A stretch of 37,333 bases of DNA. Origin: an uncultured Clostridia bacterium. GTDB lineage: Bacteria; Bacillota; Clostridia; Oscillospirales; Oscillospiraceae. The DNA is taken from NCBI GenBank assembly GCA_947306975.1, contig CAMZHU010000002.1, positions 1 through 37,333 on the forward strand, in the 5' to 3' direction. The notes beneath the pieces were generated by a model. That model ran no database searches, had not been told where the DNA came from, and saw nothing but the letters and a program-made list of their open reading frames with translations. Below, piece after piece: positions 17,635 to 37,159 of the stretch (position 1 is the first letter of the stretch; each line of letters begins with the position of its first letter). The translations under genes and the position numbers were made by a program.

Positions 17635-18219
17635 TCAGGCGTAGGTGCGTATGATCTCCTCCGCGACCTCCCGCTTAGGCACGCAGCGGTCCATTGCCTG
17701 CTTTTCTATATAACGGTGAGCCCGGGGCTCGTCCATATTCAGCTGTGAGATGAGGAGCCATTTCGCGCGGTTCACTATGCGGATCTCCTCCATCTTCTCC
17801 TCTACGGAGAGAGTCTTCTGCTCCAGTTTTCGCAGCCGTTCCCTTGCGCTCTGCATCCAGCCCAGGGCCAGCAGCACGGTGGAGGAAGAGAGCGGTTTGG
17901 ACAGCGTGAAGACGCCGTGTTCGACGACTTTTCCGCGAACGTCCTCATACAGGTCGGCGCGTACAAGAAGAAGGACGACGGCACCTTTTGATGAGGATAC
18001 GTCTATAGCGAACCTGATGCCGGTGTCGTCGGGCAGGGGGGAGTTTATGATTATGTGGTCGAACGCCTGTTCGCTCCACGCCCTTTTTGCCGCGCTGACG
18101 TTCGAAACGAACCGGACGGGGCTGTAATGGGACCCGTTCAGGAACGACGAGAGAGCAGTATTCAGTTTTTCAGCCGCAGACACGACCAGAACGCTGTATA
18201 CACGCTCTTTCAGGTCCAT
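17635..18219 (-). CDS. ANTAR-domain RNA-binding antiterminator with degenerate receiver domain
   Basis: C-terminal ANTAR: RIVNRAKWLLISQLNMDEPRAHRYIEKQAMDRCVPKREVAEEIIRTYA. N-terminal receiver-like fold lacks the phospho-Asp (FDHIIINSPLPDD). Confidence 0.88.
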   Translation of the reverse strand: MDLKERVYSVLVVSAAEKLNTALSSFLNGSHYSPVRFVSNVSAAKRAWSEQAFDHIIINSPLPDDTGIRFAIDVSSSKGAVVLLLVRADLYEDVRGKVVEHGVFTLSKPLSSSTVLLALGWMQSARERLRKLEQKTLSVEEKMEEIRIVNRAKWLLISQLNMDEPRAHRYIEKQAMDRCVPKREVAEEIIRTYA

Positions 18220-18252: not shown

Positions 18253-19464
18253 TTACTTTCCGCAGTAAATGTCCAGGATCTCCGTCGGAATATGATCGGA
18301 GATAAAAGCGCTTTCGGCTGCCGCTTTACAGGCCTCCGCATAGTTCTCGGGGAGTTTTTCAAATCCTGAGAGAGTATCCTTGTCGGCTCTGTAGAGATTT
18401 ATGTCGGCAGCCGGCGGCAGCTTCAGTTTCCTGTCGATGCCGTCCAGACCTGCGTATATCAGAAGAGCGAACGCCAGATACGGGTTCGCGCAGGGATCGG
18501 GAGAACGGAGTTCCGCTCTGCGGTATTCGCCGGCTGCAGCCGGGATACGTATGAGCTGGGAGCGGTTCTCTGCTGACCAGGATACATAGCCCGGCGCCTT
18601 GTTCCTTCCCAGCCTCCTGTAGGAATCCTCCGTCGGATTCAGGAAAAGCGTCATGGCGCGGACGTTCGCCAGTATCCCGGCGATCATACAGCTGAACTTT
18701 TCGCTCTCGTCGAATGGCTTTATAGACATGTTTATATGGAAGCCGTTGCCCGGCGCATACTCGATGGGCTTGGGGGAGAAGTCAGCGCAGAGGCCGTTCC
18801 TGTGTGCAACGGTCTTGACAACGCGCTGGAACGTCATGGAATTGCCGGCGGCGGTGAGAGCGTCCGAATAGCGGAAGTCGATCTCGTTCTGGCCCGGACC
18901 CTCTTCATGGTGGGAGCTTTCAGGACGTATGCCCATCTGTTCGAGAGTGAGGCAGATCTCACGGCGCACGTTCTCGCCCTGATCATCGGGAGCGATGTCC
19001 ATGTAGCCTGCTTCATCGCTGGGGGTATGGGTCGGATTGCCTTTCTCGTCAAGGAGGAAGAGATAGAACTCCTGCTCCGAACCGAACGTGAATTCGCAGC
19101 CTCTGGCGCGTGCTTCTGCCACGGCTTTCTTGAGCAGACTGCGGGTGTCGCATTCGAAGGGCGTCCGGTCCGGATAGGTTATGGTCGAGAACATCTGCAC
19201 GACCCGCCCGTGTTCAGGCCGCCACGGGAGCGGCATGAGGGTATCCGGTTCGGGGTGCAGAAGCAGATCGCTGCGGGTCTCGTCCCCAAATCCGGCAATT
19301 GCGGACGCGTCGAAGGCTATGCCGTGTTCAAATGCCCGGGGGAGCTCGTCAGGCATTATGGAAATGTTTTTCTGCCTGCCGAATACATCGCAGAATGCGA
19401 GACGGATGAACTTAACATCCTCTTCCTGCGTGTACTGTATGACTTCTTCCCTGGAATACTTCAT
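18253..19464 (-). CDS. glnA: Glutamine synthetase (GSI family, short, 403 aa)
   Basis: FIRLAFCDVFGRQKNISI...GSEQEFYLF...PGNGFHINMSI...NKAPGYVSWSAENRSQLIRIPAA...ELRSPDPCANPYLAFALLIYAGLDGI. Confidence 0.93.
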   Translation of the reverse strand: MKYSREEVIQYTQEEDVKFIRLAFCDVFGRQKNISIMPDELPRAFEHGIAFDASAIAGFGDETRSDLLLHPEPDTLMPLPWRPEHGRVVQMFSTITYPDRTPFECDTRSLLKKAVAEARARGCEFTFGSEQEFYLFLLDEKGNPTHTPSDEAGYMDIAPDDQGENVRREICLTLEQMGIRPESSHHEEGPGQNEIDFRYSDALTAAGNSMTFQRVVKTVAHRNGLCADFSPKPIEYAPGNGFHINMSIKPFDESEKFSCMIAGILANVRAMTLFLNPTEDSYRRLGRNKAPGYVSWSAENRSQLIRIPAAAGEYRRAELRSPDPCANPYLAFALLIYAGLDGIDRKLKLPPAADINLYRADKDTLSGFEKLPENYAEACKAAAESAFISDHIPTEILDIYCGK

Positions 19465-19482: not shown

Positions 19483-20211
19483 TTAGTTGGGCACATACAT
19501 CTGCATGTACGGATTCTTGCTGTCGGGCGTTACGACAGTGAAGGGGGAGTTGAGAACGGTGTCCGGGTCGTAACCGAAGACGTCGCAGAATCCCTCGATA
19601 TGAGCCTTCAGTTCGGCGATGTCCTCTTCGGACGCCGGCCGTGCTGTGACCTGCTCCGGGAAGACCACGCCGCTGCAGTCGGAGCGAAGGAACATCTTGC
19701 CTCCGTGCATACCGGTGCAGGGATAGAATCCCACGATCTTGTCCCGCGGAGTCTCCAGATTGAGGACTATTATGATGCCGCCCGCCTGGTACTCGCCGAG
19801 GAAACTGCCGGCCTTTCCTCCGATGACGATGACAGGGACCTTTTCCCTGTATTCCTTCATGTGGATACCGGCGCGGTATCCGGCGTTGCCCTTTACATAT
19901 ATCCTGCCGCCGCGCATCGCGTATCCGGCCGCGTCGCCTATATTACCGTGAACTATGATCGTTCCGTCGTTCATTGTATCGCCAACGGCGTCCTGGGCGC
20001 TGCCCATCACGGTGATGGTGCCGCCGTTCAGATAGGCGCCTAGCGCGTTTCCGGGTACGCCGTTAATGACGATGTCCCGGCCGGACATGCCTGCTGCGAT
20101 GAACCGCTGGCCGCAGCATCCGTCAATGACGCAGTCGCCCCCGGTGCTTCTTATGAGTTCGTTCAGAACCTTGTGTTCTACACCGTGCGCCTGTATTTTA
20201 TTAAACATCAT
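19483..20211 (-). CDS. Glutamate synthase GXGXG (GltB C-terminal-type) subunit
   Basis: Repeated G..GG.I.V.G: NGGTITVMGSAQDAVGDTMNDGTIIVHGNIGDAAGYAMRGGRIYVKGNAGYRAGIHMKEY. Confidence 0.9.
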   Translation of the reverse strand: MMFNKIQAHGVEHKVLNELIRSTGGDCVIDGCCGQRFIAAGMSGRDIVINGVPGNALGAYLNGGTITVMGSAQDAVGDTMNDGTIIVHGNIGDAAGYAMRGGRIYVKGNAGYRAGIHMKEYREKVPVIVIGGKAGSFLGEYQAGGIIIVLNLETPRDKIVGFYPCTGMHGGKMFLRSDCSGVVFPEQVTARPASEEDIAELKAHIEGFCDVFGYDPDTVLNSPFTVVTPDSKNPYMQMYVPN

Positions 20212-21440
20212 ACCACACCTCCAAACTTTTTTCTACGCAGTTCGGGAGAAAAAGCCGTCGTGGTCGCGGCTTTTTTCAGCACTTCGAAGTTCAGCGAGGA
20301 AATGGGGGTCTTTTCACGGATCAGCGAGGTGTATATACCTGCCCGTTCCTCGAGCCCTATCAGGATGAAACCTTTCAGTACATCGTCCTTGGTGAAAAGA
20401 CGCTTGAGCGATTTCTCGCCCTTTTCCTCATACATCTCGCCTTCATAGGTGCCGGCTGTCATAGCGTGGAACCCGAAGAATCCGATGGAGTTCATGGGCA
20501 TGCCCTTGCCGAAGACTTCGTCGCCGCCGGCCATGTTTATCCCAGCCGCACGTCCCTGCATATATGCATTTGGAAGGATGGCGAGCACTCTGTTCTGACC
20601 GAGGGAGATATCGTATCCTTCGGCGCAGTCACCGGCCGCATAGATGCAGGGCACAGACGTCTCCATCCGTTCACTCACTACTATGCCGCGGTTCACTTCG
20701 CCGCCGATCTCCTTTATCAGTGAGGTGTTGGCCCGGACGCCCACGGCGAGGACCAGGATATCGAAATGGACGACTTCACCGCTCTTCATGACGGCGCAGG
20801 TCCCGTCGAACCTTACGACGCTGTCGCTGAGGAGGAACTTGATCCCGTGCGATTCCAGGTGACTCTGCATTATTGCCGCGCACTCGTTGTCCAGGATGCT
20901 CGACAGGACACGGCCGGCGAGATCACAGACCGTTATGCCGGCGACCCTGCCGCAAAGGCCCTCGGCACACTTCATGCCTATGAGGCCGGCTCCTACGATG
21001 AGGACCTTGGAGTCCGGACCCACGGCCCTGTCAAGTTGAATGGCGTCGTCGAGCGTCATGAAGGAATAGCTCTCCGGTACGGTGTCGAGCCCTTCGAAGG
21101 GAGGGACGAAGGGGCAGGAACCCGCCGCGACACAGAGAGCGTCGTAAGGGATGACCGTACCGTCGTCCAGTTCTACTGTTTTCGCCCCGCTGTCTATATG
21201 CACCGCTTTTCTGCCGAAGTGCACTTTCGCGCCGTTGCGCTCATAGAAGCCCGGGGCGCGGTAGCGCATGCGTTCCAGATCAGTTTTGCCTTCGAGATAG
21301 TAGGAAATGAGGGGACGGCAGTATACGTCGTGCTCTTCTTCAGAAATGACGGTGATGGGGCCTTCGTGGTCGATGCTTCTTATTCCCTCGATGCATCCCG
21401 CCGAAGCGACGCCGTTTCCTATGATCACGTAGTTCTTCAC
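20208..21440 (-). CDS. FAD/NAD(P)-dependent oxidoreductase
   Basis: YVIIGNGVASAGCIEGIR ... VLIVGAGLIGMKCAEGL ... IYAAGDCAEGYD. Confidence 0.9.
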   Translation of the reverse strand: MKNYVIIGNGVASAGCIEGIRSIDHEGPITVISEEEHDVYCRPLISYYLEGKTDLERMRYRAPGFYERNGAKVHFGRKAVHIDSGAKTVELDDGTVIPYDALCVAAGSCPFVPPFEGLDTVPESYSFMTLDDAIQLDRAVGPDSKVLIVGAGLIGMKCAEGLCGRVAGITVCDLAGRVLSSILDNECAAIMQSHLESHGIKFLLSDSVVRFDGTCAVMKSGEVVHFDILVLAVGVRANTSLIKEIGGEVNRGIVVSERMETSVPCIYAAGDCAEGYDISLGQNRVLAILPNAYMQGRAAGINMAGGDEVFGKGMPMNSIGFFGFHAMTAGTYEGEMYEEKGEKSLKRLFTKDDVLKGFILIGLEERAGIYTSLIREKTPISSLNFEVLKKAATTTAFSPELRRKKFGGVV

Positions 21441-21877
21441 TCGACAGCACCTCTTTCCTCATACACGATGGCCTTGTTGGGACAGCCTTTCACGCAGGCG
21501 GGCTCGCCGCATGCGTTCTGAAGGCAGAGTTCACACTTCTGCATGACACCGTCCTCGTTCGGCGCCAGAGCGCCGTAAGGGCAGACCAGAACGCAGGTAA
21601 AGCAGCCTACGCACTTGTCCTTGTCGATCTGCATGACGCCGTCGTTCATGGTGATGGCCCCGGCTATGCAGCTCTTGACACACATTGGATCCGTACAGTG
21701 ACGGCAGGACACAGCGTAGGAGATTTTTTCATCGCCTTCCACGTGTATCCTCGGATAGATCGGCTTGCCCTTGAGGGCATAGGCCATGTCGGTCATGCCG
21801 GAATTGGCGAAAGCGCAGTTGTACTCGCAGAGGTGGCAGCCCAGACACCACTCTTCATTAACATATACCCGTTTCAT
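21437..21877 (-). CDS. 4Fe-4S dicluster-type ferredoxin subunit
   Basis: CLGCHLCEYNCAF, CRHCTDPMCVKSC, CVGCFTCVLVCPYG, CELCLQNACGEPACVKGCP motifs. Confidence 0.92.
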   Translation of the reverse strand: MKRVYVNEEWCLGCHLCEYNCAFANSGMTDMAYALKGKPIYPRIHVEGDEKISYAVSCRHCTDPMCVKSCIAGAITMNDGVMQIDKDKCVGCFTCVLVCPYGALAPNEDGVMQKCELCLQNACGEPACVKGCPNKAIVYEERGAVE

Positions 21878-21881
21878 ATGA

Positions 21882-23387
21882 TCACTCTCCTGCGTGCGAG
21901 ATACCTAGTATCTGAAGTTCTTTCTCGTTCAGTCCGACGCCTCTCAGCATGAGTCTGTTGCCCCGGAGAGCCTCAATGGAGTTTATCCCCATTCCGCCCA
22001 TGAGCTCCATTATCTCATTCCTCCAGGCGGTCAGGAGGTTCACAAGCCTCTTGCTGCCGATGTCGGGGTTCAGGCGCTTTACCAGATCTGCGCGCTGGGT
22101 CGCGATGCCCCAGTTGCATCTGCCCGTCTGGCAGGTCCTGCAAAGATGACACCCCAGAGCCAGAAGAGCGGCTGTGGCGATGTAGCAGGCGTCTGCTCCG
22201 AGAGCGACCGCTTTGACTATATCAGCTGCGCTCCTGATCGAACCTCCGACGACGAGGGAGACGTTGTCTCTGATGCCCTCGTCCCGCAGCCGCTGATCGA
22301 CGGCTGCAAGCGCCAGTTCTATCGGAATGCCGACGTTGTCGCGTATGCGCGTCGGTGCAGCTCCGGTGCCGCCGCGGAAACCGTCGATAGCGATGATGTC
22401 GGCTCCGCTTCTGGCTATGCCGCTGCAGATGGCGGGAATGTTGTGGACTGCGGCCACCTTTACTATTACCGGCTTGCGGTATTCGGTCGCTTCCTTGAGC
22501 GAAAGAACGAGCTGGCGTAGATCCTCTATGGAGTAAATGTCGTGATGGGGGGCGGGGGATATGGCGTCTGACCCCTCGGGGATCATCCTTGTGCGGGAAA
22601 CGTCACCGACGATCTTTGCTCCGGGCAGATGCCCGCCGATACCGGGTTTTGCGCCCTGGCCCATCTTGATCTCGATGGCGGCACCTGCCTCCAGATAGTC
22701 TTCATGTACGCCGAAGCGGCCGCTGGCGACCTGCACGATCGTATTGGGACCGTATTTATAGAAGTCCTCGTGAAGACCGCCCTCGCCGGTGTTGTAGAGG
22801 ACGCCGGCCTCGGTGGCCGCACGGGCAAGAGAGGCGTGAGCGTTATAACTCAGGGAACCGTAGCTCATCGCCGAGAACATGACGGGCATCGAAAGTTCTA
22901 TCTGCGGGGGAAGATCGCATACGATCCTGCCGTTTTCGTCTTTTCTGATCTTATCCGGCTTTTTGCCCAGAGAGACCCGGGTCTCCATGGGTTCGCGAAG
23001 CGGATCGATAGACGGGTTCGTGACCTGGGAAGCATTTATAAGGAGGTTGTCCCAGTAGACCGGGAGCGGCTTCGGGTTGCCCATTGAAGACAGAAGCACG
23101 CCGCCGCTGGAGGCCTGTTTGTAGATCTCCGTGATCGTATCGTGCTGCCAGTTGGCATTTTCACGGAGCCTGCAGTCGGATTTGACTATCTTAAGGGCCC
23201 TGGTGGGGCAGAGGGAGACGCAGCGCTGGCAGTTGACGCATTTTGTCTCGTCGCTTATCATGGCTCCGCGTTCCGTACTGTACATGTGCACCTCATTTGC
23301 GCACTGGCGTTCGCAGACGCGGCACGCGATGCACCGGTTTTCGTTCCTAATGACTTCAAATTCAGGGAAGATGAAATCGACGCCCAT
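21882..23387 (-). CDS. Glutamate synthase FMN-binding (central) subunit with N-terminal 2x[4Fe-4S]
   Basis: CIACRVCERQCANEV, CVNCQRCVSLCP; SMPVMFSAMSYGSLSYNAHASLARAATEAG...GEGG...KMGQGAKPGIGGHLPGAKIVGDVSRTRMIPEGSDAISPAPHHDIYSIEDL. ATG at 23387 overlaps the upstream TGA. Confidence 0.94.
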   Translation of the reverse strand: MGVDFIFPEFEVIRNENRCIACRVCERQCANEVHMYSTERGAMISDETKCVNCQRCVSLCPTRALKIVKSDCRLRENANWQHDTITEIYKQASSGGVLLSSMGNPKPLPVYWDNLLINASQVTNPSIDPLREPMETRVSLGKKPDKIRKDENGRIVCDLPPQIELSMPVMFSAMSYGSLSYNAHASLARAATEAGVLYNTGEGGLHEDFYKYGPNTIVQVASGRFGVHEDYLEAGAAIEIKMGQGAKPGIGGHLPGAKIVGDVSRTRMIPEGSDAISPAPHHDIYSIEDLRQLVLSLKEATEYRKPVIVKVAAVHNIPAICSGIARSGADIIAIDGFRGGTGAAPTRIRDNVGIPIELALAAVDQRLRDEGIRDNVSLVVGGSIRSAADIVKAVALGADACYIATAALLALGCHLCRTCQTGRCNWGIATQRADLVKRLNPDIGSKRLVNLLTAWRNEIMELMGGMGINSIEALRGNRLMLRGVGLNEKELQILGISHAGE

Positions 23388-24481
23388 CAATAAGCACCTT
23401 CTTTCACATTGACTATAACTGGTTCTCCGCCGGCCGGGGCCCATACGTTCTCGGCATCGGGCTCCATAGTGCGGATCGCAGCTTCCTCGCTGGCGATGAA
23501 CACCTTGTCATCCTTCTCGCCGACTACCATTGAACGGAGCTTCAGCCTGTCGTTCAGCGCCATGAGCCCGCCGGTATACCCAAAGACGACAGAGAAGGGG
23601 CCAGTCACGAGGAGGCTCGGGAACATCTTCCGCAGAAAAGCGTACTGTTTTCTCGCGGCTTCATCGGTCTCCTGCTCAATGGTGCTCCAGAACGGGGCGG
23701 CTATGACGCTCGCCGCTTCCCTGAGGGTCAGACCCTGCCTGCGGATGAGATAATCCATTATATAGGTAATGACCTCGGTGTCTGTCTGCAGCGTGCATTT
23801 GTAGCCGAACATCTCGATGTACCTGCGGTTCGCGTCATACGAGGATATCTCGCCGTTGTGTACTATGGAGTAGTCGAGGAGGGTGAAGGGATGCGCGCCG
23901 CCCCACCAGCCGGGGGTGTTGGTGGGATAGCGTCCGTGGGCTGTCCAGGAGTACCCTTCATACTCATCCAGCCTGTAGAAGACGCCGACGTCCTCCGGAA
24001 AACCGACTGCCTTGAATGTGCCCATGTTCTTGCCGCTGGAGAACACATATGCGCCGTCCATCTCAGTGTTGATCTTCATAACCGTTCGCGCTACGAACTC
24101 TTTTTCATCCAGCTGCAGGTTCGCAAGCATGGATTTGAGCGGCGCGACGAAATAGCGCCAGATTATAGGCTCGTCTGTAATGGCGGGCATCTTGCGTGTC
24201 GGAATGAGCTCGGACTTGACGATCTCGAAATGCTCTTTGAGGAATATCTCGCATTCCTTCTGCACGGCGCGGTCATCAAAGAACAGATGCAGCGCGTAGA
24301 GATCCTTGTACTCGGGATAGATGCCGTAGCCTGCGAATCCGCCGCCCAGACCGTTTGAACGCTCGTGCATGGGGACCATCGACCTGATTATCGACTCGCC
24401 GGTCATCCTTTTCCCGTCCCTGGAAATCACAGCCGCGATCGCGCATCCTGAGGGGATGCGAACCTGACCCTCTTTAAACAT
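23387..24481 (-). CDS. Glutamate synthase-type class II glutamine amidotransferase subunit
   Basis: MFKEGQVRIPSGCAIAAVISRDGKRMTG...MHERSNGLGGGFAGYGIYPEY. AAGGAG RBS before the ATG at 24481; the track start at 24568 lies in the leader hairpin. Confidence 0.9.
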   Translation of the reverse strand: MFKEGQVRIPSGCAIAAVISRDGKRMTGESIIRSMVPMHERSNGLGGGFAGYGIYPEYKDLYALHLFFDDRAVQKECEIFLKEHFEIVKSELIPTRKMPAITDEPIIWRYFVAPLKSMLANLQLDEKEFVARTVMKINTEMDGAYVFSSGKNMGTFKAVGFPEDVGVFYRLDEYEGYSWTAHGRYPTNTPGWWGGAHPFTLLDYSIVHNGEISSYDANRRYIEMFGYKCTLQTDTEVITYIMDYLIRRQGLTLREAASVIAAPFWSTIEQETDEAARKQYAFLRKMFPSLLVTGPFSVVFGYTGGLMALNDRLKLRSMVVGEKDDKVFIASEEAAIRTMEPDAENVWAPAGGEPVIVNVKEGAY

Positions 24482-24502
24482 TGGCTTCAGCTCCTTAGGA
24501 CA

Positions 24503-24562
24503 GATAATAAAGAAAAGGCGTTCATCACCGTGCAGAAGATCTGTACGACAATGAACGCCTTT
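24503..24562 (-). terminator. Leader terminator/attenuator of the gltB-like operon
   Basis: Minus strand AAAGGCGTTCAT ... ATGAACGCCTTT (12-bp perfect stem) then TTTTCTTTATTA, upstream of the RBS. Confidence 0.82.
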
Positions 24563-24569
24563 GCTCATT
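24550..24569 (-). promoter_or_regulatory. ANTAR-type hexaloop hairpin in the leftward leader
   Basis: RNA AAUGAGC[AAAGGC]GUUCAUU: 7-bp stem (one G-U), hexaloop with A1 and G4; 3' half overlaps the terminator 5' arm. Confidence 0.72.
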
Positions 24570-24576
24570 TGCCTGC

Positions 24577-24605
24577 ATTATATGCCGTCCGAAACGGCTT
24601 GTCAA
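24577..24605 (-). promoter_or_regulatory. Consensus promoter of the leftward glutamate synthase operon, with palindrome in spacer
   Basis: Minus strand TTGACA - 17 nt - TATAAT; the spacer contains GCCGT-ttcgg-ACGGC. Confidence 0.88.
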
Positions 24606-24635
24606 CACTTTTTACATTATAATTTGCCTGTTATC

Positions 24636-24660
24636 TGCAAGCCGCGTGCAAAAACTTGCA
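24636..24660. repeat. Inverted/direct TGCAA repeats between divergent promoters
   Basis: TGCAAG-N13-CTTGCA, with TGCAA at 24636, 24647 and 24656. Confidence 0.5.
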
Positions 24661-24669
24661 AAAAAACTG

Positions 24670-24698
24670 TTGACATAGCGATGGAGAGGGTGTATATT
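24670..24698 (+). promoter_or_regulatory. Promoter of the rightward GSIII-amt operon
   Basis: TTGACA - 17 nt - TATATT. Confidence 0.82.
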
Positions 24699-24707
24699 GA
24701 CATTCGT

Positions 24708-24725
24708 AAAGGCAAGGGCGTCTTT
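24708..24725 (+). promoter_or_regulatory. ANTAR-type hexaloop hairpin 1 in the rightward leader
   Basis: RNA AAAGGC[AAGGGC]GUCUUU: 6-bp stem (one G-U), hexaloop with A1 and G4. Confidence 0.7.
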
Positions 24726-24758
24726 GAGTGATTACTTGGAGACGCCCTGTTTCTTTTC
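24715..24758 (+). terminator. Terminator-like hairpin 1 in the rightward leader
   Basis: AGGGCGTCTTTGAGT-gatt-ACTTGGAGACGCCCT (15 pairs incl. G-U) then GTTTCTTTTC; overlaps ANTAR hairpin 1. Confidence 0.65.
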
Positions 24759-24790
24759 AGATACCGGGCAAACAGAAAACTGAAAAAGGC

Positions 24791-24808
24791 AAAGGCAAAG
24801 GCGTCTTT
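24791..24808 (+). promoter_or_regulatory. ANTAR-type hexaloop hairpin 2 in the rightward leader
   Basis: RNA AAAGGC[AAAGGC]GUCUUU: same stem as hairpin 1, hexaloop identical to the leftward leader. Confidence 0.72.
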
Positions 24809-24850
24809 AGTGTTTGATCACATTAGCGTCTTTGCCTTTTCTTATTTCAA
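24791..24850 (+). terminator. Terminator/attenuator 2 in the rightward leader
   Basis: AAAGGCAAAG ... CTTTGCCTTT stem then TTCTTATTT tail; overlaps ANTAR hairpin 2 and precedes the GSIII RBS. Confidence 0.75.
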
Positions 24851-24872
24851 CGGAGAAAAGGAGTTTTGAACG

Positions 24873-26969
24873 ATGAGTACAGTATCTGATTATTTCGGCA
24901 GCCTGGTCTTCGACGACCGCGCAATGCGCAAAAGCCTCTCTTCCGACGTCTACGCTTCGCTCCGCAGGACGATCGACGAGGGCAGCGAGCTCGACATCGG
25001 CGTAGCCAACGCCGTGGCCGAAGCGATGAAGGAATGGGCGGTAGAGCGGGGCGCGACTCATTTTACTCACTGGTTCCAGCCCCTTACCGGTATTACCGCT
25101 GAAAAGCACGACAGCTTCATCACTCCGGCCCCTGACGGCAGCGTGATAATGGAATTCTCCGGGAAGGAGCTTATAAAGGGCGAACCCGACGCTTCGTCGT
25201 TCCCAAGCGGTGGCCTCCGGGCCACCTTCGAGGCGAGAGGCTACACGGCCTGGGACCCGACTTCCTACGCGTTCATTAAAGGAAAGACGCTTTGCATTCC
25301 CACCGCGTTCTGTTCTTACGGCGGTCCGGCCCTCGATAAAAAGACGCCGCTGCTCCGCTCCATGGAGGTCTTGAGCAAGCAGGCGCTGCGCATACTCCGC
25401 CTCTTCGGCAACGATACGGCCAAGCGTGTCGTATCCTCGGTCGGCCCGGAGCAGGAATACTTCCTCGTGACCAGGGAGATGTACGAGAAGCGCCCTGACC
25501 TGAGGTTCACAGGACGCACCCTGTTCGGCGCCAAGCCGCCGAAGGGCCAGGAACTGGACGACCACTATTTCGGCGTCATCAAGCCGGGCGTGACTGCGTA
25601 TATGGAGGATCTGAACGAAGAGCTCTGGAAGCTGGGCATCCTGGCCAAGACCGAGCACAACGAGGTCGCTCCCGCTCAGCATGAGCTGGCTCCCATATAT
25701 ACGACTACCAACGTGGCCACCGATCACAACCAGATAACCATGGAGATCATGCAGAAGGTGGCCGCAAAACACGGTCTCGTCTGTCTGCTGCATGAGAAAC
25801 CGTTTGCGGGAGTCAACGGCAGCGGCAAGCATAACAACTGGTCAATCGCGACCGACAGCGGGCAGAACCTTCTGTCACCGGGAGAGACGCCCTATGAGAA
25901 CGCACAGTTCCTGCTGTTCCTATGCGCCGTAATAAAGGCAGTGGACGACTATCAGGATCTTCTCAGAATCGCGGTCGCTACCGCAGGAAACGATCACCGC
26001 CTCGGCGCGAACGAGGCGCCGCCGGCCGTCATTTCCATGTTCCTGGGCGACGAGCTGAACGCGGTCCTCGAGGCTATCGAGACCGGAAAACCGTACAAGG
26101 GAGCAAAGAAGACGCAGATGAAGCTGGGCGTCGATGTTCTGCCGAAGTTCAACCGCGACACCACAGACCGTAACAGGACGTCTCCCTTCGCGTTCACGGG
26201 CAACAAGTTCGAGTTCCGTATGCTTGGTTCTTCCAACAGTATAGCGTGCGCCAATATAATGCTGAACGCAGCGGTCGCCGAGAGCCTGCGGATCTACGCA
26301 GACAGACTGGAGAAAGCGGAGAACTTCCAGACTGTGCTCCACGACATGATCAAGAAGACCATAAAAGACCACAAACGCATCATCTTCAACGGCAACGGCT
26401 ACGACGATGCGTGGATAAAGGAAGCCACAGAGAAAAGAGGCCTTCTCAACTACCGCACCACCGCAGACTGCATGCCGCACCTTCTCGACAAGAAGAACAA
26501 GGATATGCTCATAAATCTCGGCGTCTTCACTGAGGAGGAGCTCAGATCCCGCTGCGATATCATGCTTGAGAATTACTGCAAGAGCGTAGTTATCGAGGCG
26601 AACACCATGGCGGACATGGCAAGGACACAGATCGTTCCGGCCATCGAAGCTTACGCATCCGACATTGCTAAGACTGCTTCCGCCAAAAAGGCGGTCGCTC
26701 CTGAGCTGGCGTGCGGATATGAAGCCGGCCTCGTCAGAAAGCTGTCACAGCTTATCGATGAGATCGACGAGAAGAGCGGCAAACTCGAGGACGCGGTGCT
26801 CGCGCTCGACGGAGCTGACGGAATAATTGAAGAGTCCGCGATGATCCGCGATACGGTACTGCCCGTAATGAGCGAGCTGCGCCTGCCATGCGACAAAGCG
26901 GAAGTGCTGACCGCGAAGAGCTACTGGCCGTTCCCGACGTATGCGGATCTGCTCTTCGGTGTTAAATGA
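24873..26969 (+). CDS. glnN: Glutamine synthetase type III
   Basis: Large (698 aa) GSIII: THFTHWFQPLTGITAEKHDSFI...SSFPSGGLRATFEARGYTAWDPTSYAFIK...GPEQEYFLV...GKHNNWSI. Confidence 0.96.
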   Translation: MSTVSDYFGSLVFDDRAMRKSLSSDVYASLRRTIDEGSELDIGVANAVAEAMKEWAVERGATHFTHWFQPLTGITAEKHDSFITPAPDGSVIMEFSGKELIKGEPDASSFPSGGLRATFEARGYTAWDPTSYAFIKGKTLCIPTAFCSYGGPALDKKTPLLRSMEVLSKQALRILRLFGNDTAKRVVSSVGPEQEYFLVTREMYEKRPDLRFTGRTLFGAKPPKGQELDDHYFGVIKPGVTAYMEDLNEELWKLGILAKTEHNEVAPAQHELAPIYTTTNVATDHNQITMEIMQKVAAKHGLVCLLHEKPFAGVNGSGKHNNWSIATDSGQNLLSPGETPYENAQFLLFLCAVIKAVDDYQDLLRIAVATAGNDHRLGANEAPPAVISMFLGDELNAVLEAIETGKPYKGAKKTQMKLGVDVLPKFNRDTTDRNRTSPFAFTGNKFEFRMLGSSNSIACANIMLNAAVAESLRIYADRLEKAENFQTVLHDMIKKTIKDHKRIIFNGNGYDDAWIKEATEKRGLLNYRTTADCMPHLLDKKNKDMLINLGVFTEEELRSRCDIMLENYCKSVVIEANTMADMARTQIVPAIEAYASDIAKTASAKKAVAPELACGYEAGLVRKLSQLIDEIDEKSGKLEDAVLALDGADGIIEESAMIRDTVLPVMSELRLPCDKAEVLTAKSYWPFPTYADLLFGVK

Positions 26970-26988: not shown

Positions 26989-28707
26989 ATGACAGTTGAA
27001 TTTTGGTTTCTGATCGGCGCAGCGCTGGTGTTTTGGATGCAGGCAGGCTTTGCGATGGTCGAGACGGGTTTTACACGTGCAAAGAACGCCGGCAACATCA
27101 TCATGAAGAATCTCATGGATTTCTGCATCGGGACTGTGGTCTTTTCGATTCTGGGCTACGGGCTCATGATGGGCGAAGATATCTTCTTCGGGCTCCTGGG
27201 GAAACCTAATCTCGACCTTTTCACACATTTCAAGGAATTCATAGCGTCGCCGGCCGAGGGGTTCGCAGGTTCGAGCTATTTCGTATTCAACCTCGTATTC
27301 TGCGCTACTACGGCGACTATCGTATCCGGGTCTATGGCGGAGCGGACAAAGTTTTCCGCATACTGCGTATACTCAGCGGTCATATCCCTCGTTATCTACC
27401 CGATCGAGGCTCACTGGATCTGGGGCGGAGGCTGGCTCAGCCAGCTCGGTTTCCACGACTATGCCGGCTCATGCGCCATACACATGGTCGGCGGCATCGC
27501 CGCCTTGATCGGCGCCGCTGTACTGGGTCCGCGCATCGGTAAGTACAAGACAGACAGCGCCGGAAAGATCGTCAAGGTAAACGCGATACCCGGACATTCG
27601 CTCCCGCTGGGAGCCCTGGGCGTGTTCATCCTGTGGCTCGGATGGTATGGATTCAACGGTGCTGCGGCGACTTCAGCGTCTGAGCTCTCCAGCATATTCC
27701 TCACGACGACGATAGCTCCCGCCGTGGCCACCTGCACCACGATGATCTTCACTTGGATAAAGAACGGCAAGCCCGATGTCTCCATGTGCCTCAACGCATC
27801 GCTTGCAGGACTCGTCGGTATAACCGCCGGGTGTGACGCTCTCGATGCTTTCGGATCCGTCGTCGTAGGTATAGTTTCCGGCATACTGGTAGTCGTTGTA
27901 GTCGAAGTGCTCGACCTGAAGCTACATATAGATGACCCGGTCGGAGCTGTGGGCGTCCACTGCGCGAACGGCGTATGGGGAACTATAGCGGTCGGCCTTC
28001 TGGCAAACCCGAATGCGCCGGCGGGACTCAGCGGCCTGTTCTATACGGGCGATTTCAGACAGCTGGGACTGCAGCTAATCGGTTTCGTTACTGTTGCCGC
28101 TTGGAGCGGGATAACGATGTTCTGCTTCTTCAAGATACTGAAGAAGATCGATTTCCTCAGAGCAGATGCGGCTGACGAGCTCTCAGGTCTGGATATAAGC
28201 GAGCACGGCCTGCCCAGCGCATACGCGGACTTCATGCCTTCAGTCGACAAGTACGCGGAATTCGGATCCGGCGATCATATAGTTGCTGTGACAGGAACGA
28301 CGCCCGTTGCTGAGGCTGTTCCCGTAAAGAGAGAACCGACCTTCGGCGAGCATAAATTCACGAAGATCGAGATAATCTTCAAGGAGGAAAAGCTCTACGC
28401 GCTCAAGGACGCCATGTCAAAACTTGGCATCACCGGCATGACCGTTTCCCATGTCATGGGCTACGGGATGCAGAAGGGGCATACTGAGTTCTACCGCGGC
28501 GTCGCTGTTGAGACCGACCTCCGCCCGAAGGTACAGGTGGATATCGTAGTTACGGCGATCCCGGTCAGGGACGTCATAGAAACAGCTAAAAGAGTCCTGT
28601 ATACCGGTCATATCGGAGACGGAAAGATATTCGTATACGATGTGGAGAACGTCATTAAGGTGCGTACCGGCGAGGAGGGCTATGCGGCCCTGCAGGATGT
28701 TGAGTGA
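26989..28707 (+). CDS. Ammonium transporter with C-terminal PII (GlnK-like) domain fusion
   Basis: Amt core (FWMQAGFAMVETGFTRAKNAGNIIMKNLMDF; GGIAALIGA; GVHCANGVWGTIAVGL), then from about nt 28350 FTKIEIIFKEEKLYALKDAMSKLGITGMTVSHVMGYGMQKGHTEFYRG...GHIGDGKIFVYDVENVIKVRTGEEG. Confidence 0.95.
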   Translation: MTVEFWFLIGAALVFWMQAGFAMVETGFTRAKNAGNIIMKNLMDFCIGTVVFSILGYGLMMGEDIFFGLLGKPNLDLFTHFKEFIASPAEGFAGSSYFVFNLVFCATTATIVSGSMAERTKFSAYCVYSAVISLVIYPIEAHWIWGGGWLSQLGFHDYAGSCAIHMVGGIAALIGAAVLGPRIGKYKTDSAGKIVKVNAIPGHSLPLGALGVFILWLGWYGFNGAAATSASELSSIFLTTTIAPAVATCTTMIFTWIKNGKPDVSMCLNASLAGLVGITAGCDALDAFGSVVVGIVSGILVVVVVEVLDLKLHIDDPVGAVGVHCANGVWGTIAVGLLANPNAPAGLSGLFYTGDFRQLGLQLIGFVTVAAWSGITMFCFFKILKKIDFLRADAADELSGLDISEHGLPSAYADFMPSVDKYAEFGSGDHIVAVTGTTPVAEAVPVKREPTFGEHKFTKIEIIFKEEKLYALKDAMSKLGITGMTVSHVMGYGMQKGHTEFYRGVAVETDLRPKVQVDIVVTAIPVRDVIETAKRVLYTGHIGDGKIFVYDVENVIKVRTGEEGYAALQDVE

Positions 28708-28721
28708 TAAGGTGATATGAC

Positions 28722-30305
28722 ATGTGTTCAATTATCGGATACTGCGGCACCGTCGCTGACGCGGGGGCTTTCGATGCGGGCTTTGCCCGCACGAAGTCCC
28801 GCGGCCCCGATGACAGCCGCGTAATAGATACCGGGAGAGGCATCCTCGGCTTCCACCGGCTTTCGATCATGGGGCTGACGCCGTCAGGCATGCAGCCCTT
28901 TGAGCTTGACGGGAGCTGGGCCGTATGCAACGGCGAGCTTTACGGATTCGAGAAGGAGAGGGACGAACTCATAAAGAAGGGATATACCTTCAAGAGCGAC
29001 AGCGACTGCGAGATACTGCTGCCACTGTACAGGGAGTACGGCACGGATATGTTCGCAATGCTGGACGCAGAGTTTGCCTGCATCATCTACGACGGGGAGA
29101 CCGGGGGTTTTGTTGCTGCCCGCGACCCGATCGGAATCCGCCCGCTCTATTACGGGTACGATGGAAAAGGGACTATCGTGTTCGCCAGTGAGGCCAAGAA
29201 CCTTGTGGGCATAGCAGACAGGATCATGCCGTTTCCGCCGGGATATTTTTACAAAGACGGCAGATTCGAGCGATACTGCGATATAACCGCGGTCGACGCG
29301 GTATCCGGCGACGACATAGAGACGGCGTGCGCAAAGATCCGGGAAAAGCTCACGGAGGGCGTGAAGAAACGCCTCATATCCGACGCAAAGGTAGGATTTC
29401 TGCTCTCCGGCGGGCTCGATTCCTCTCTGGTATGCGCCATAGCGGCCAAAGAGATCGACAGACCGATAGAGACCTTTGCAATAGGTATGGAAAAGGACGC
29501 TATCGACCTCAAATACGCCCGGCAGGTAGCCGATTTCATCGGGAGCCACCACACTGAAGTGTTCATGACGCCGGAAGAGGTCGTATCATCTCTTGAGGAT
29601 GTCATCCATCTTCTGGGCACTTACGACATCACCACGATCCGCGCAAGTATGGGCATGTACCTTGTATGTAAGGCGATACACGAGCGGACGGATATCCGGG
29701 TGCTGCTCACAGGCGAGATCTCCGACGAGCTGTTCGGTTACAAATACACCGACTTCGCACCTTCGGCTGAAGCCTTCCAGAAGGAGGCTGTAAAACGCGT
29801 CAGCGAGCTCCACATGTACGATGTGCTGCGTGCGGACCGCTGTATATCCGTAAACTCCCTCGAAGCCCGGGTCCCTTTCGGAGACCTGGATTTCGTGAAG
29901 TACGTCATGAGCATTGATCCGGCTATGAAGATGAACAGTTACGGAAAGGGCAAGTACCTGCTGCGCCACGCGTTTGAAGGCACGGGGATCCTGCCCGACG
30001 AGATACTCTGGCGCGAAAAGGCGGCATTCTCCGACGCAGTCGGGCATTCCATGGTGGACGACCTTAAGGCTTTCGCTGAGACCAGGTACACTGACGAAGA
30101 GTTCGAGAAGCTCAAGATGAAGTACACACACGCCCGCCCCTTTACTAAGGAGTCGCTTCTGTACCGGGAGATATTCGAGAGATACTATCCGGGACAGGCG
30201 GAGATGGTGGCGGATTTCTGGATGCCGAACCGTTCGTGGGAGGGCTGCGACGTGGACGATCCGTCCGCGAGGGTCCTGTCGAACTACGGAGCCAGCGGAG
30301 AATAA
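28722..30305 (+). CDS. asnB: Asparagine synthetase (glutamine-hydrolysing)
   Basis: MCSIIGYCG class II GATase; FLLSGGLDSSLVCAIAAKEI PP-loop; LEARVPFGDLDFVKYVMSIDP. Confidence 0.93.
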   Translation: MCSIIGYCGTVADAGAFDAGFARTKSRGPDDSRVIDTGRGILGFHRLSIMGLTPSGMQPFELDGSWAVCNGELYGFEKERDELIKKGYTFKSDSDCEILLPLYREYGTDMFAMLDAEFACIIYDGETGGFVAARDPIGIRPLYYGYDGKGTIVFASEAKNLVGIADRIMPFPPGYFYKDGRFERYCDITAVDAVSGDDIETACAKIREKLTEGVKKRLISDAKVGFLLSGGLDSSLVCAIAAKEIDRPIETFAIGMEKDAIDLKYARQVADFIGSHHTEVFMTPEEVVSSLEDVIHLLGTYDITTIRASMGMYLVCKAIHERTDIRVLLTGEISDELFGYKYTDFAPSAEAFQKEAVKRVSELHMYDVLRADRCISVNSLEARVPFGDLDFVKYVMSIDPAMKMNSYGKGKYLLRHAFEGTGILPDEILWREKAAFSDAVGHSMVDDLKAFAETRYTDEEFEKLKMKYTHARPFTKESLLYREIFERYYPGQAEMVADFWMPNRSWEGCDVDDPSARVLSNYGASGE

Positions 30306-30333
30306 GAGTCAACAGTATACGGAGGAATAAGTA

Positions 30334-32154
30334 ATGTGCGGTATAGTCGGATTTACGGGTACACAGCCCGCTGCGCCGGTCCTTCTGGAAGGACTTAAGA
30401 AACTTGAATACAGGGGCTACGACTCTGCGGGGATAGCAGTGATGTCGGACGGCGTGATATCGGTCAGCAAGGTCACGGGACGCATCGCCAACCTTTGCGA
30501 GAAGACAAGGGACGGTGCGGAAGTGCCCGGCGCCGCCGGGGTGGGGCACACGAGATGGGCAACCCACGGGGCGCCTACCGAAGAAAACGCGCACCCCCAT
30601 CTGAGCAACGACGGACGGTTCGCCGTAGTACACAACGGGATCATTGAGAACTACATCGCACTCCGGGAGGAGCTCATCAGGGACGGTTACCGTTTCGAGA
30701 GCGAAACAGATACTGAAGTCATCGTCCATCTTGTAGAGATGTACTACTCCGGCAGCGTCAGGGACGCCCTGATCAAGACTACGAACCGTCTGCGGGGATC
30801 ATACGCGCTCGGCGTGATCTGTGCGGACGAGCCGGGGAAACTGTTCGCGGTCCGGGAGGCAAGCCCGCTCATCCTCGGCGTCGGAGTCGGTGAGAACTAC
30901 TTCGCCTCTGACGTCACGGCCCTGGTCCCCTATACGAGGAACTGCATTTACATGGACGACGGAGAGTACGCGGAACTGTCGAGAGATTCCGTGAAGATCT
31001 TCGACTGCACAGGCCAGGAGATCGCAAAAGACGTCGTCCGCGTCACATGGGACGTTCAGGCCGCCGAAAAGGGCGGCTACGAGCATTTTATGCTCAAGGA
31101 GATCATGGAACAGCCCGCCGCCATAAAGGCCGCCACGGCTCCAAGGATAAAAAACGGTAAAGTCTTTTTCGAGGAGATGGATATAAGCGCGGAGCAGCTC
31201 AGGGATATAAGAAAGATCGTTATAACTGCCTGCGGCTCAGCGTATTACGCGGGATGCTCGGGAAGATACGCGATTGAAAAACTCTGCAGGATACCGGTGG
31301 AGGTGGAGCTGGCCAGCGAGCTGCGATACAACAACCCGCTGATCGACGGGCATACGCTTCTGATCGTCATATCCCAGTCCGGAGAGACGGCGGACACGAT
31401 AGCGGCGATGAAGGAGTGCAAAGCCCGGGGCGCTAAGGCTCTCGCGATCGTGAACGTCGTGGGGAGCACGATAGCCAAACTCGCGGACTGGACCGCATAC
31501 ACATGGGCCGGGCCTGAGATAGCCGTGGCCACTACTAAGGGATACACGACCCAGCTTGCGGTCCTGTATCTCCTTTCTGTGTATTTCGCGGATAAACTGG
31601 GGTATATCGGTGACTGTTCCAAATACGTTTCTTCTCTGCGCGCGCTGCCGAGGCTCATACAGCAGGCGATAGATATGAACCCCGGCGTTGCACAGCTGGC
31701 GAAGAAGTATCATTCGAGCAGGTCCCTGTTCTTCATAGGCCGCAATACCGATTACGCTGTGGCGCTGGAAGGGGCGCTGAAGATGAAGGAGATATCGTAC
31801 CTTCACGCCGAGGCGTACGCTGCCGGCGAACTGAAGCACGGTACGATCGCCCTCATAGAGGAACACACTCCGGTCGTCGCGCTGTGCTGCAACCCGGCGA
31901 TAATGGAGAAGACGCTGAGCAACATAGTCGAGGTGAAGGCAAGGGGAGCGGAGGTCCTGGCGCTGACATTCAGGGACAACCAGAAGATACTCTCTGTCGC
32001 CGACGACTTGCTGTTCATACCGAAGGTCGACGCGCTCTTCTCCGCCGCAGTGGAGATAATTCCGCTCCAGATCCTCGCCTACTTCGTGGCGAAGGAGAAC
32101 GGCTGCGATATCGACAAGCCCAAAAATCTGGCGAAGTCGGTCACTGTTGAATAA
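30334..32154 (+). CDS. glmS: Glutamine-fructose-6-phosphate aminotransferase (isomerising)
   Basis: MCGIVGFTGTQPAAPVLLEGLKKLEYRGYDSAGIAV; SIS domains; C-terminal DKPKNLAKSVTVE. Confidence 0.97.
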   Translation: MCGIVGFTGTQPAAPVLLEGLKKLEYRGYDSAGIAVMSDGVISVSKVTGRIANLCEKTRDGAEVPGAAGVGHTRWATHGAPTEENAHPHLSNDGRFAVVHNGIIENYIALREELIRDGYRFESETDTEVIVHLVEMYYSGSVRDALIKTTNRLRGSYALGVICADEPGKLFAVREASPLILGVGVGENYFASDVTALVPYTRNCIYMDDGEYAELSRDSVKIFDCTGQEIAKDVVRVTWDVQAAEKGGYEHFMLKEIMEQPAAIKAATAPRIKNGKVFFEEMDISAEQLRDIRKIVITACGSAYYAGCSGRYAIEKLCRIPVEVELASELRYNNPLIDGHTLLIVISQSGETADTIAAMKECKARGAKALAIVNVVGSTIAKLADWTAYTWAGPEIAVATTKGYTTQLAVLYLLSVYFADKLGYIGDCSKYVSSLRALPRLIQQAIDMNPGVAQLAKKYHSSRSLFFIGRNTDYAVALEGALKMKEISYLHAEAYAAGELKHGTIALIEEHTPVVALCCNPAIMEKTLSNIVEVKARGAEVLALTFRDNQKILSVADDLLFIPKVDALFSAAVEIIPLQILAYFVAKENGCDIDKPKNLAKSVTVE

Positions 32155-32194: not shown

Positions 32195-32908
32195 ATGAAC
32201 AAAGGCGAGCTCCTTTATGAGGGGAAGGCTAAGAAGGTCTATATGACTGACGACCCCGGCCTTCTCATCGTTTCTTACAAGGACGACGCAACGGCCTTCA
32301 ACGGTCTCAAGCGCGGGACGATCCAGGGGAAAGGCGTGATCAATAACAGGATGAGCAATCTGCTCATGAAACGGCTGGAGGAGAAGGGCATCCCGACCCA
32401 TCTGGTTGAAGAATTAAGCGAGCGCGACACCCTCGTAAAGAGAGTATCGATCGTGCCGCTTGAAGTGATCGTCAGAAACATCTCAGCCGGCTCGTTCTCA
32501 AAACGTTACGGCGTGGAAGAGGGAATAGTCTTCGAGGCCCCTACCATTGAGATATCGTACAAGAACGATGAACTGGGAGATCCGCTGCTGAACCATTACC
32601 ATGCCCTGGCGCTTAAGCTGGCGAGCGAGAAGGAGCTCGAGACCATAAAAGAATACTCTTTCCGCATAAACGACGAGCTGAAGTGCTTCTGGAGCGGCTG
32701 CGGCGTTACGCTGGTCGACTTCAAACTCGAGTTCGGAAGGCTCCCCGACGGGACCATCGTCCTGGCTGATGAGATCAGCCCGGATACATGCCGGCTATGG
32801 GACAGCGCCACGGGCAAGAAGCTCGACAAGGACCGCTTCCGCCGTGATCTGGGCGGCGTCGAGGACGCCTATCAGGAGATCATGCAGCGGCTGAAGGCCA
32901 ACATATAA
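32195..32908 (+). CDS. purC: Phosphoribosylaminoimidazole-succinocarboxamide synthase
   Basis: LLYEGKAKKVYMTDDPGLLIVSYKDDATAFNG; VRNISAGSFSKRYGVEEG; DEISPDTCRLWD. Confidence 0.96.
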   Translation: MNKGELLYEGKAKKVYMTDDPGLLIVSYKDDATAFNGLKRGTIQGKGVINNRMSNLLMKRLEEKGIPTHLVEELSERDTLVKRVSIVPLEVIVRNISAGSFSKRYGVEEGIVFEAPTIEISYKNDELGDPLLNHYHALALKLASEKELETIKEYSFRINDELKCFWSGCGVTLVDFKLEFGRLPDGTIVLADEISPDTCRLWDSATGKKLDKDRFRRDLGGVEDAYQEIMQRLKANI

Positions 32909-32923
32909 AGGGGGTAGATCGTG

Positions 32924-34195
32924 ATGAACAGCGCTATCGTCGGCATCAACTGGGGCGACGAGGGCAAAGGCCGTATGGTCGATCTGCTCACCGAGAGCTA
33001 CGACGTCGTCGTCCGGTATCAGGGGGGCGGCAACGCAGGTCATACCGTTATAAACGAGAGGGGCAGATTCGCACTGCATCTGCTCCCCTCCGGCATATTC
33101 AGGGATGGCGTTGTGAACATACTCGGAAACGGCGTCGCTCTTGATCCCGAGAATCTCTGGAAGGAGATTCAGGAAGTCTCATCCAAAGGCGTATCCGTCA
33201 CGCCGGAGAACCTGAAGATCAGCGACAGGGCTTCTCTGCTCATGCCATGGCACAGGGATCTTGACGAACTCGAGGAGCTTCGTCTTGCGGACAAGAAGTA
33301 CGGATCGACGAAGCAGGGCATAGCGCCTTTTTATTCCGACAAATACCAGAAGAAGACGGTCCTGGCAGGGGAACTCCGCGACGGAAATGCTGTAAGAGAG
33401 CGCCTGAAAGGTTTACTGGAATGGAAGAACCTCACTCTGACGAAGGTCTACGGAGCTGAACCGTACACCATGCAGAAACTGGAGCAGTGGCTACGTGATT
33501 ACTGCGACATGATACTGCCGTTCGTATGCGATACCGGTACGTTCCTTAAAGAAGCGCAGAAGGACAATAAGAGCATCCTTCTGGAGGCTCAGCTGGGCGC
33601 ACTCCGAGATCTTGACTACGGAATATATCCTTACACCACGTCTTCCAACACGACGGCAGCATATGCACCTATAGGCGCCGGACTGCCCTCCCTGAGGATC
33701 GACGACGTCGTCGGTGTCGTCAAGGCATACTCCACATGTGTCGGAGAGGGCCCGTTCGTCTGCGAGATGTCCGGACCCGAGGCGGACAGGCTCCGCGAGG
33801 CGGGTTCGGAATACGGCGCAAAGACGGGAAGACCGCGCAGGGTCGGACCTATAGATATAGTTGCGACCAGATACGGCGTTGAAGTACAGGGAGCCACCCG
33901 GATCGCACTCACGAAACTGGACGTGCTGAGCTATATGGAAAAGATACCCGTTTGCGTCCGCTACCGCATCGGCGGCAGGGAAACGGACAGCTTCCCGTTC
34001 CCGACGGAGCTCGACAGCGCAGAGCCGGTTGTCGAGTATCTCAACGGCTGGAACTGCGACATCTCCGGTGCGCGGCGTTGGGAGGATCTGCCCGTAGCTG
34101 CGAAGGAATACGTAACTTTTGTTGAAAAAACGATCGGCTGCCCGGTAGCCTACGTTTCTGTAGGTCCGGAGCGAGAAAAGGTCATAAGGAGATAA
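32924..34195 (+). CDS. purA: Adenylosuccinate synthetase
   Basis: AIVGINWGDEGKGRMVDLL; YQGGGNAGHTV. Start GTG 32921 or ATG 32924. Confidence 0.95.
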   Translation: MNSAIVGINWGDEGKGRMVDLLTESYDVVVRYQGGGNAGHTVINERGRFALHLLPSGIFRDGVVNILGNGVALDPENLWKEIQEVSSKGVSVTPENLKISDRASLLMPWHRDLDELEELRLADKKYGSTKQGIAPFYSDKYQKKTVLAGELRDGNAVRERLKGLLEWKNLTLTKVYGAEPYTMQKLEQWLRDYCDMILPFVCDTGTFLKEAQKDNKSILLEAQLGALRDLDYGIYPYTTSSNTTAAYAPIGAGLPSLRIDDVVGVVKAYSTCVGEGPFVCEMSGPEADRLREAGSEYGAKTGRPRRVGPIDIVATRYGVEVQGATRIALTKLDVLSYMEKIPVCVRYRIGGRETDSFPFPTELDSAEPVVEYLNGWNCDISGARRWEDLPVAAKEYVTFVEKTIGCPVAYVSVGPEREKVIRR

Positions 34196-34199
34196 ACAG

Positions 34200-35615: not shown

Positions 35616-35626
35616 GGGGCTGAGTC

Positions 35627-37159
35627 ATGGAAAAGATCCTGGTGCTGGATTTCGGCGGGCAGTATGACCAGCTCATAGCCCGCAGAGTAAGAGACCAGCA
35701 TATTTACGCTGAGATAAAGCCGTACAGCGCCATATCTCTGCCTGAAATAAAGGACGCAGGATATGCCGGGATCATCTTCACGGGAGGTCCCAACAGCGTA
35801 TACGACAGCGATTCTCCCCATTACGACCCGGCGATACTTGACGCGGGCATCCCGATACTTGGCATATGCTACGGAGATCAGCTCATGGCGTATATGGCGG
35901 GCGGGACAGTATCGTCCGCCGAGGACTCCAGCGAGTACGGAAAGACGGTCGTGAACGTCACCGGGGATGCACTTTTCGCCGGGGTGCCGGAAGAGAGCGT
36001 CTGCTGGATGAGCCATACGGATTACATCAGCGCCACACCTCGCGATTTCAGAACGACAGCGCGCACTGCCAGCTGCCCCTGCGCGGCTATGTGCGACGAA
36101 GGGCGGAAGCTGTACGGTGTCCAGTTCCATCCGGAGGTGACCCACACCGAGTACGGGACGCAGATACTCCGGAATTTCCTCTACGGTATCTGCGGATGCA
36201 CCGGAGACTGGAGCGTTGAGGATTACGCAGAAAGGACGATAGAGGAATACAGAGTTAAGCTAAGCGGCAAAAAGGTGCTGCTGGCTCTTTCGGGCGGCGT
36301 GGATTCTTCCGTCGCCGCGGCTCTCCTCAGCCGCGCGATAGGCAGCGACCTCACCTGCGTTTTTGTCGATCACGGACTGCTCCGCAAGGACGAGGGAGAC
36401 ATGGTCGAGAGAACGTTCGGGAGCGGTTACGGTCTCAACTTCGTGCGCGTGAACGCTCAGGAGAGGTTCATCTCGAAGCTGGCGGGCGTCACCGAGCCCG
36501 AGAAAAAGAGAAAGATCATCGGGGAGGAGTTCATACGCGTATTCGAGGATGAGGCGAAAAAACTCGGTCGCATCGACGTGCTCGCACAGGGTACGATCTA
36601 TCCCGATGTCATCGAGAGCGGAAAGGGAGACTCCGCTATTATAAAGAGCCATCACAACGTGGGAGGCCTGCCGGACGTCATCTCCTTCGAATCCATAGCG
36701 GAGCCTCTCAGGGACCTGTTCAAGGATGAGGTCAGGAAAGTCGGCACGATGCTGGGAATCCCGCACGAGCTCGTGTGGAGACAGCCGTTCCCGGGGCCCG
36801 GACTTGCGGTCCGGGTGATGGGGGAAGTCACCGCCGAAAAGCTCTCCGTCCTCAGGGAAGCGGACGCCATATTCCGCGAAGAGGTAGGGAAGCTGGGACT
36901 TGAAAACGCTCCTGACCAGTATTTCGCGGTACTTACAGACACCCGAAGCGTAGGCGTCATGGGCGACGCCAGGACATACGGTTATGTGGTCGCTCTCCGA
37001 GCCGTCACCACCGACGATTTCATGACGGCTGAATGGACCAAACTTCCGTTGGAGGTGCTTGAACGCGCCAGCGGCAGGATCACGAACGAAGTACACGGAG
37101 TTTCACGTGTCGTTTATGATATTTCATCCAAGCCTCCGGCAACGGTGGAGTGGGAGTGA
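35627..37159 (+). CDS. guaA: GMP synthase (glutamine-hydrolysing)
   Basis: [54 protein letters not shown]-terminal [12 protein letters not shown]. Confidence 0.97.

Follow-up and report, generated by a model that had tools for sequence, protein, structure and literature searches.

Single-hexaloop ANTAR-type leaders with overlapping terminators precede divergent nitrogen operons in an uncultured gut Clostridia bacterium

How might a short intergenic region govern two divergent nitrogen operons? The question is raised by the window analyzed here, the whole stretch of 37,333 nt from an uncultured gut Clostridia bacterium (GCA_947306975.1, contig CAMZHU010000002.1, 1-37,333), in which a glutamate synthase operon and a type III glutamine synthetase (GSIII) operon diverge from a region of 382 nt (24491-24872). 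A first-pass annotation had described three hexaloop hairpins overlapping leader terminators in both operons; all three were located with the sequences it gave, and each overlaps an intrinsic terminator of its own. In every hairpin the loop is closed by a C-G pair next to a G-U pair, and the ANNGGC loop has A as its first base and G as its fourth (A1/G4). The leftward hairpin, AATGAGC[AAAGGC]GTTCATT, occupies 24550..24569 on the minus strand (loop 24562-24557) and scores 45.2 bits against our covariance model R1, while the rightward leader carries, on the plus strand, TAAAGGC[AAGGGC]GTCTTTG at 24707..24726 (loop 24714-24719; 44.2 bits) and AAAGGC[AAAGGC]GTCTTT at 24791..24808 (loop 24797-24802; 37.1 bits).

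The leftward terminator and its U-rich tail span 24503..24562 (minus strand), and the 5' arm of this terminator is made of the hexaloop together with the 3' arm of the hairpin. Rightward terminator 1 (24715..24758, plus strand) has a 15-bp stem and a U-rich tail, and rightward terminator 2, likewise with a U-rich tail, lies at 24791..24847 (plus strand). The loop and 3' arm of each hairpin are shared with its terminator, as is the 5' arm in the second rightward element. The leftward terminator and its U tract were correctly recognized in the first-pass annotation, but the stem is 18 bp in the predicted fold rather than 12 bp, and the tract as printed took in the last U residues of the stem, the tail proper being UCUUUAUUA. 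Predicted terminator folds are -29.2 (leftward), -25.8, and -30.0 kcal/mol (rightward 1 and 2), with z scores of -7.1, -4.3, and -7.1, compared with only -3.8 to -5.2 kcal/mol predicted for the weak hexaloop hairpins alone, indicating that termination is the default fold. Three elements in 24491-24872 compare with 0.0017 expected per dinucleotide shuffle, and none of 3000 shuffles contained three; elsewhere in the 37-kb window, no element with a stem of at least 6 bp was found. An Rfam search returned no family at the gathering threshold and only chance-level matches at relaxed thresholds, and the pattern GGCANRGGCGTC, scanned over the whole genome, matched no more often than its reversed control and was not informative.

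Comparable elements recur in relatives, which are uncultured rumen and gut Clostridia recorded as Oscillospiraceae, Lachnospiraceae, or Bacillota. Across 80 related loci (1.19 Mb), we counted terminator-overlapping hexaloops with a stem of at least 5 bp for all 16 base combinations at loop positions 1 and 4: A1/G4 gave 151 matches versus 9–42 for each of the 15 other combinations, and 131 of these A1/G4 elements also close with C-G and have a loop fitting ANNG[AG][ACT]. Overlap with an intrinsic terminator was itself a condition for being counted, and percentages of pairing are inflated by selection on both stem and terminator; for this reason, the hairpin was evaluated in a structure-blind set, defined by a promoter followed by C-ANNG-NN-G with no structure used in choosing. 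This set divides into two groups, a background with stems of 1–3 bp and a group with stems of 5–8 bp (103/164), and it recovers the same leaders as the structure-selected set. The covariation check over relatives that the first-pass annotation had proposed came out in its favor: in the 89 structure-blind sequences whose loops resemble the consensus, pairs of the hairpin stem were altered on both sides in 139 cells versus 59.5 in shuffled data, a value reached in 0 of 500 shuffles, and sliding the pairing partner abolished the signal. Covariation is also seen in each of the two mutually exclusive helices, terminator and hairpin, in 50 sequences selected for both. As a separate observation, three loci (L062:1101, L063:1101, and L066:1101) carry a hexaloop-terminator element, TGAAGC[AANGGC]GTTTCA, before a protein of 862–873 aa with a PPDK_N (pyruvate phosphate dikinase, ATP-binding) domain, an unexpected member of the regulon.

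A covariance-model search had also been proposed, and it linked the elements to ANTAR genes. We ran R1 on 117 genomes of the order, 77 with and 40 without an ANTAR gene. At E≤1e-4, R1 matched 42 of the 77 ANTAR-containing genomes and none of the 40 others (Fisher p ~1e-10, which overstates independence because the genomes are related); at E≤0.01, the counts were 53/77 and 4/40, the four being weak. Contrasts within genera agree: in genus g80, G079 and G136 have both the gene and the element and G110 has neither, and in g107, G167 has both and G124 neither. No R1 match at E≤0.01 was obtained in 24 of the 77 ANTAR-containing genomes (for example, G016 and G021), and the model does miss variant elements.

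Both leaders are directly preceded by a predicted near-consensus promoter. The leftward promoter, TTGACA-N17-TATAAT (24577..24605, minus strand), matches the consensus at 12/12 positions, its -10 box ending 7 nt upstream of the hairpin stem, while the rightward promoter, TTGACA-N17-TATATT (24670..24698, plus strand), matches at 11/12 positions and ends 8 nt before the stem. Start sites were predicted by assuming initiation ~7 nt after the -10 box. With so few nucleotides separating that box from the stem, no other structure precedes the hairpin in the predicted transcript, and the gap therefore leaves no space for an upstream hexaloop hairpin (P1). The arrangement is common among relatives: of the 131 elements, 83 have a promoter with at least 9/12 matches ahead of the hairpin, the distance from the end of the -10 box to the stem is 6–11 nt in 76 of these 83 leaders, and among order- and class-wide matches it is 6–13 nt in 67 of 72 elements. 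In none of the 83 promoter-linked leaders does an A1/G4 hexaloop lie between the -10 box and the stem. Where elements occur in tandem, they are complete single units with their own terminators, the second following the first by 61–127 nt.

The genes behind these leaders center on nitrogen metabolism. The leftward operon contains the split glutamate synthase genes (19483..24481, minus strand), encoding GXGXG, pyridine nucleotide-disulphide oxidoreductase, ferredoxin-like, Glu_synthase, and GATase proteins, with the start of the GATase subunit set at the ATG at 24481, and continues into GlnA, a type I glutamine synthetase (18253..19464, minus strand; Pfam Gln-synt_C, 2e-86), which lies directly before an ANTAR gene. 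In 73 of the 80 related loci glnA directly precedes the ANTAR gene, the commonest layout being glt-glnA-ANTAR divergent from GSIII. The GlnA of the window is short, at 403 aa, and falls below the NCBIfam GlnA cut-off (334 versus 429 bits). Rightward, on the plus strand, the first gene encodes GSIII (24873..26969; GSIII_N, 1.8e-79), followed by an ammonium transporter (Amt) with a C-terminally fused P-II domain (26989..28707; residues 458-562), situated between GSIII and AsnB, and by asparagine synthase B and GlmS (28722..32154). Closely spaced genes for PurC, PurA, PurB, and GuaA follow (32195..37159), and gaps of at most 41 nt suggest that they are possibly part of the same transcript. In relatives, genes downstream of the elements encode GltB1, GSIII, GlnA, GdhA, Amt, PurC, GuaA, and PyrG. 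Several of these products are glutamine-dependent amidotransferases, which suggests a signal relating to glutamine or nitrogen status. The same genome holds a second GSIII copy outside the window (G000:C4:18579-20657), 63% identical, with no R1 element listed nearby.

The leftward glt-glnA operon ends with a gene (17635..18219, minus strand) that encodes a predicted ANTAR RNA-binding regulator with a pseudo-receiver domain (Pfam ANTAR, 1.1e-17; Response_reg, 5.3e-07). Its ANTAR score is 64 bits versus a cut-off of 27.3, and it is the one ANTAR gene detected in the host genome, which is 64% complete. Neither this gene (17635-18219) nor the near-consensus promoters figured in the first-pass annotation. 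In alignment with EutV, the position of the phospho-accepting Asp54 is taken by Asn59, a replacement found in 80 of 81 homologues, and Ser14 stands in the acidic-pocket region in all 81. As judged by its sequence, therefore, the protein is not a canonical response regulator, lacking both the phospho-acceptor Asp and the acidic pocket. Given such a receiver, its activity is probably governed not by a histidine kinase but by a ligand or a partner protein; GlnA and P-II are candidate partners, and the short GlnA beside the ANTAR gene could serve as the sensor. Among the RNA contacts of EutV (PMC8934654), Lys149 (K153 here) and Glu160 (E164) are kept, while Tyr164 is replaced by H168, a His also present in AmiR, and Arg142 by Ile146. 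An AlphaFold2 model of the protein has a mean pLDDT of 89, and among full-length matches the structure closest to the predicted fold by TM-score is RNA-bound EutV (6ww6, TM 0.77).

Could the hairpins nonetheless belong to the canonical dual-hexaloop motif, with the two rightward hairpins acting as P1 and P2 and the leftward hairpin having an undetected partner? The well-characterized ANTAR antitermination targets are all dual, and the rightward leader does hold two hexaloops. In the eut leaders of Enterococcus faecalis, however, two hexaloops are joined by a linker of 5–12 nt, with the second overlapping the terminator, and changing the linker to 3 or 14 nt strongly reduces induction (PMC3369931), whereas 83 nt, including a complete terminator, separate the two rightward loops here. 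The predicted leftward transcript begins at its hairpin, the corresponding interval is free of A1/G4 hexaloops in all 83 promoter-linked leaders, and where a second hexaloop follows a GltB1 element it has no fixed place: some A..G loop occurs in 21 of 40, with positions scattered and, like the loops, unconserved, and many in the coding region. The dual reading is accordingly improbable, and these leaders appear to lack the canonical dual arrangement; what the first-pass annotation took for the usual ANTAR motif has the hexaloop determinants of an ANTAR target, but as a single hairpin. As a positive control for the dual-hairpin detector, 50 eutP loci were scanned together with four 20-kb eut regions, and no convincing A1/G4 pair with a terminator emerged; given the weakness of this control, the single-hairpin claim rests on promoter adjacency. 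Among eut loci of the same order (L208-L211 and L188-L207), some with adjacent ANTAR genes, no recognizable dual hexaloop was seen near eutP. In a eutP leader from another Clostridia family (L220:1046-1130), inspection by eye revealed a dual-like arrangement, attgtac[AACGGC]gtacaat closely followed by aaagc[GATGAA]gctt overlapping a terminator, with G1 in the second loop.

The terminators are strong and dominate the predicted fold, and the hexaloops might in principle be by-products of terminator sequence in plain attenuators on which no ANTAR protein acts. We regard this as very improbable: the 5' arm of the hairpin pairs independently and covaries although a terminator has no need of it, A1/G4 is conserved, and the elements track ANTAR genes. 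We give equally little weight to the notion that the hairpins are ANTAR targets whose main effect is on translation or RNA stability. Such a role has been proposed for certain ANTAR RNAs of actinobacteria, where only a few are linked to terminators, and an mRNA could be shielded by a hairpin placed at its extreme 5' end; but the terminator helix covaries, the structure-blind set recovers the same leaders, and the hairpins in the window do not overlap ribosome-binding sites.

We therefore favor the reading in which both leaders are ANTAR antitermination switches, with one hexaloop per terminator, that respond to nitrogen limitation, and consider it very probable. As in known ANTAR systems, the genome carries an ANTAR gene, the target hairpin presents an A1/G4 hexaloop, and its formation would exclude a terminator. 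Under this antitermination model, the intrinsic terminators in the leaders would hold both operons off. RNA polymerase would start a few nucleotides upstream of the hexaloop hairpin, and in the unaided transcript the stronger terminator, reusing the loop and 3' arm, would displace the weak hairpin and transcription would stop. When nitrogen is limiting, an ANTAR dimer would bind the single emerging hexaloop and keep the hairpin closed, blocking the terminator so that the operon is read; the rightward leader would act as two such gates in series. Since the ANTAR gene is last in the leftward operon, the switch would feed back positively on itself. We infer the binding, the antitermination, the direction of the response, and the signal from the features described above. 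The first-pass annotation had likewise supposed that one ANTAR antiterminator controls glutamate synthase and GlnA leftward and GSIII, Amt, and amidotransferases rightward, a supposition that gains support from conservation, covariation of both helices, co-occurrence, and the placement of the ANTAR gene within the operon.

This kind of system is known from predictions made in 2012 and from NitR. ANTAR nitrogen regulons comprising glutamate synthase, Amt, P-II, and GS, with several attenuators per transcript, were predicted by Ramesh (2012), and in Clostridium saccharobutylicum NitR is described, in the summary of Stutz et al. (2007) given in PMC6316151, as an ANTAR protein inducing the genes of the GS/GOGAT cycle by antitermination on nitrogen limitation. 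The present system resembles NitR in that respect and, relative to that summary, also takes in GSIII, Amt, GdhA, and nucleotide genes. Predicted ANTAR attenuators precede glutamate synthase and other nitrogen genes in Desulfotomaculum reducens and D. acetoxidans as well, the latter having 13 in six transcription units (PMC3369931); the model behind that prediction requires both stems, and single-hexaloop leaders would therefore not fit it. With EutV and the eut leaders, the system has in common the A1/G4 hexaloop, the conserved closing pair, the overlap of loop and 3' arm with the terminator, and the ANTAR fold, but it has one hexaloop rather than two, its hairpin opens the predicted transcript, and a pseudo-receiver replaces the phosphorylated receiver. 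In Pseudomonas aeruginosa, AmiR is likewise a pseudo-receiver ANTAR protein without phosphorylation residues and is controlled by AmiC (PMC8934654), whereas here no AmiC-like neighbor is present and GlnA is adjacent.

On the genomic evidence, we judge the single-hexaloop layout to be a widespread variant of the known ANTAR antitermination system. Deletion of P1 in E. faecalis negatively affects eutP inducibility, and full induction in vivo requires P1 (PMC3369931). Walshe et al. redefined one hexaloop as the minimal binding motif but argued that antitermination needs both, and they raised the question of what a single hexaloop does (PMC8934654); by these arguments, a lone hexaloop might be inefficient or depend on a further factor. 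A bolder proposal would make these leaders a distinct Clostridia class, with a single hexaloop at the 5' end, no recruitment hairpin, and a phosphorylation-independent ANTAR protein set by direct contact with GlnA, such that glutamine synthetase reports nitrogen status to RNA; we put this forward tentatively and think it rather unlikely. The promoter-abutting single-hexaloop layout, its spread in Clostridia, and the glnA-adjacent pseudo-receiver were not found described in our literature search, which did not take in Stutz et al. (2007), a study that may record part of this for C. saccharobutylicum.

In the accepted model of ANTAR antitermination, the first hexaloop recruits the protein and the second blocks the terminator, and regulation through a single hexaloop was left open in 2022 (PMC8934654). 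The leaders described here offer many natural candidate targets with a single hexaloop, small enough for in vitro work, and the pseudo-receiver protein encoded beside glnA raises the question of how nitrogen status is sensed. Through such leaders, ANTAR regulation would reach central nitrogen genes and glutamine-amidotransferase genes in many uncultured Clostridia from gut and rumen.
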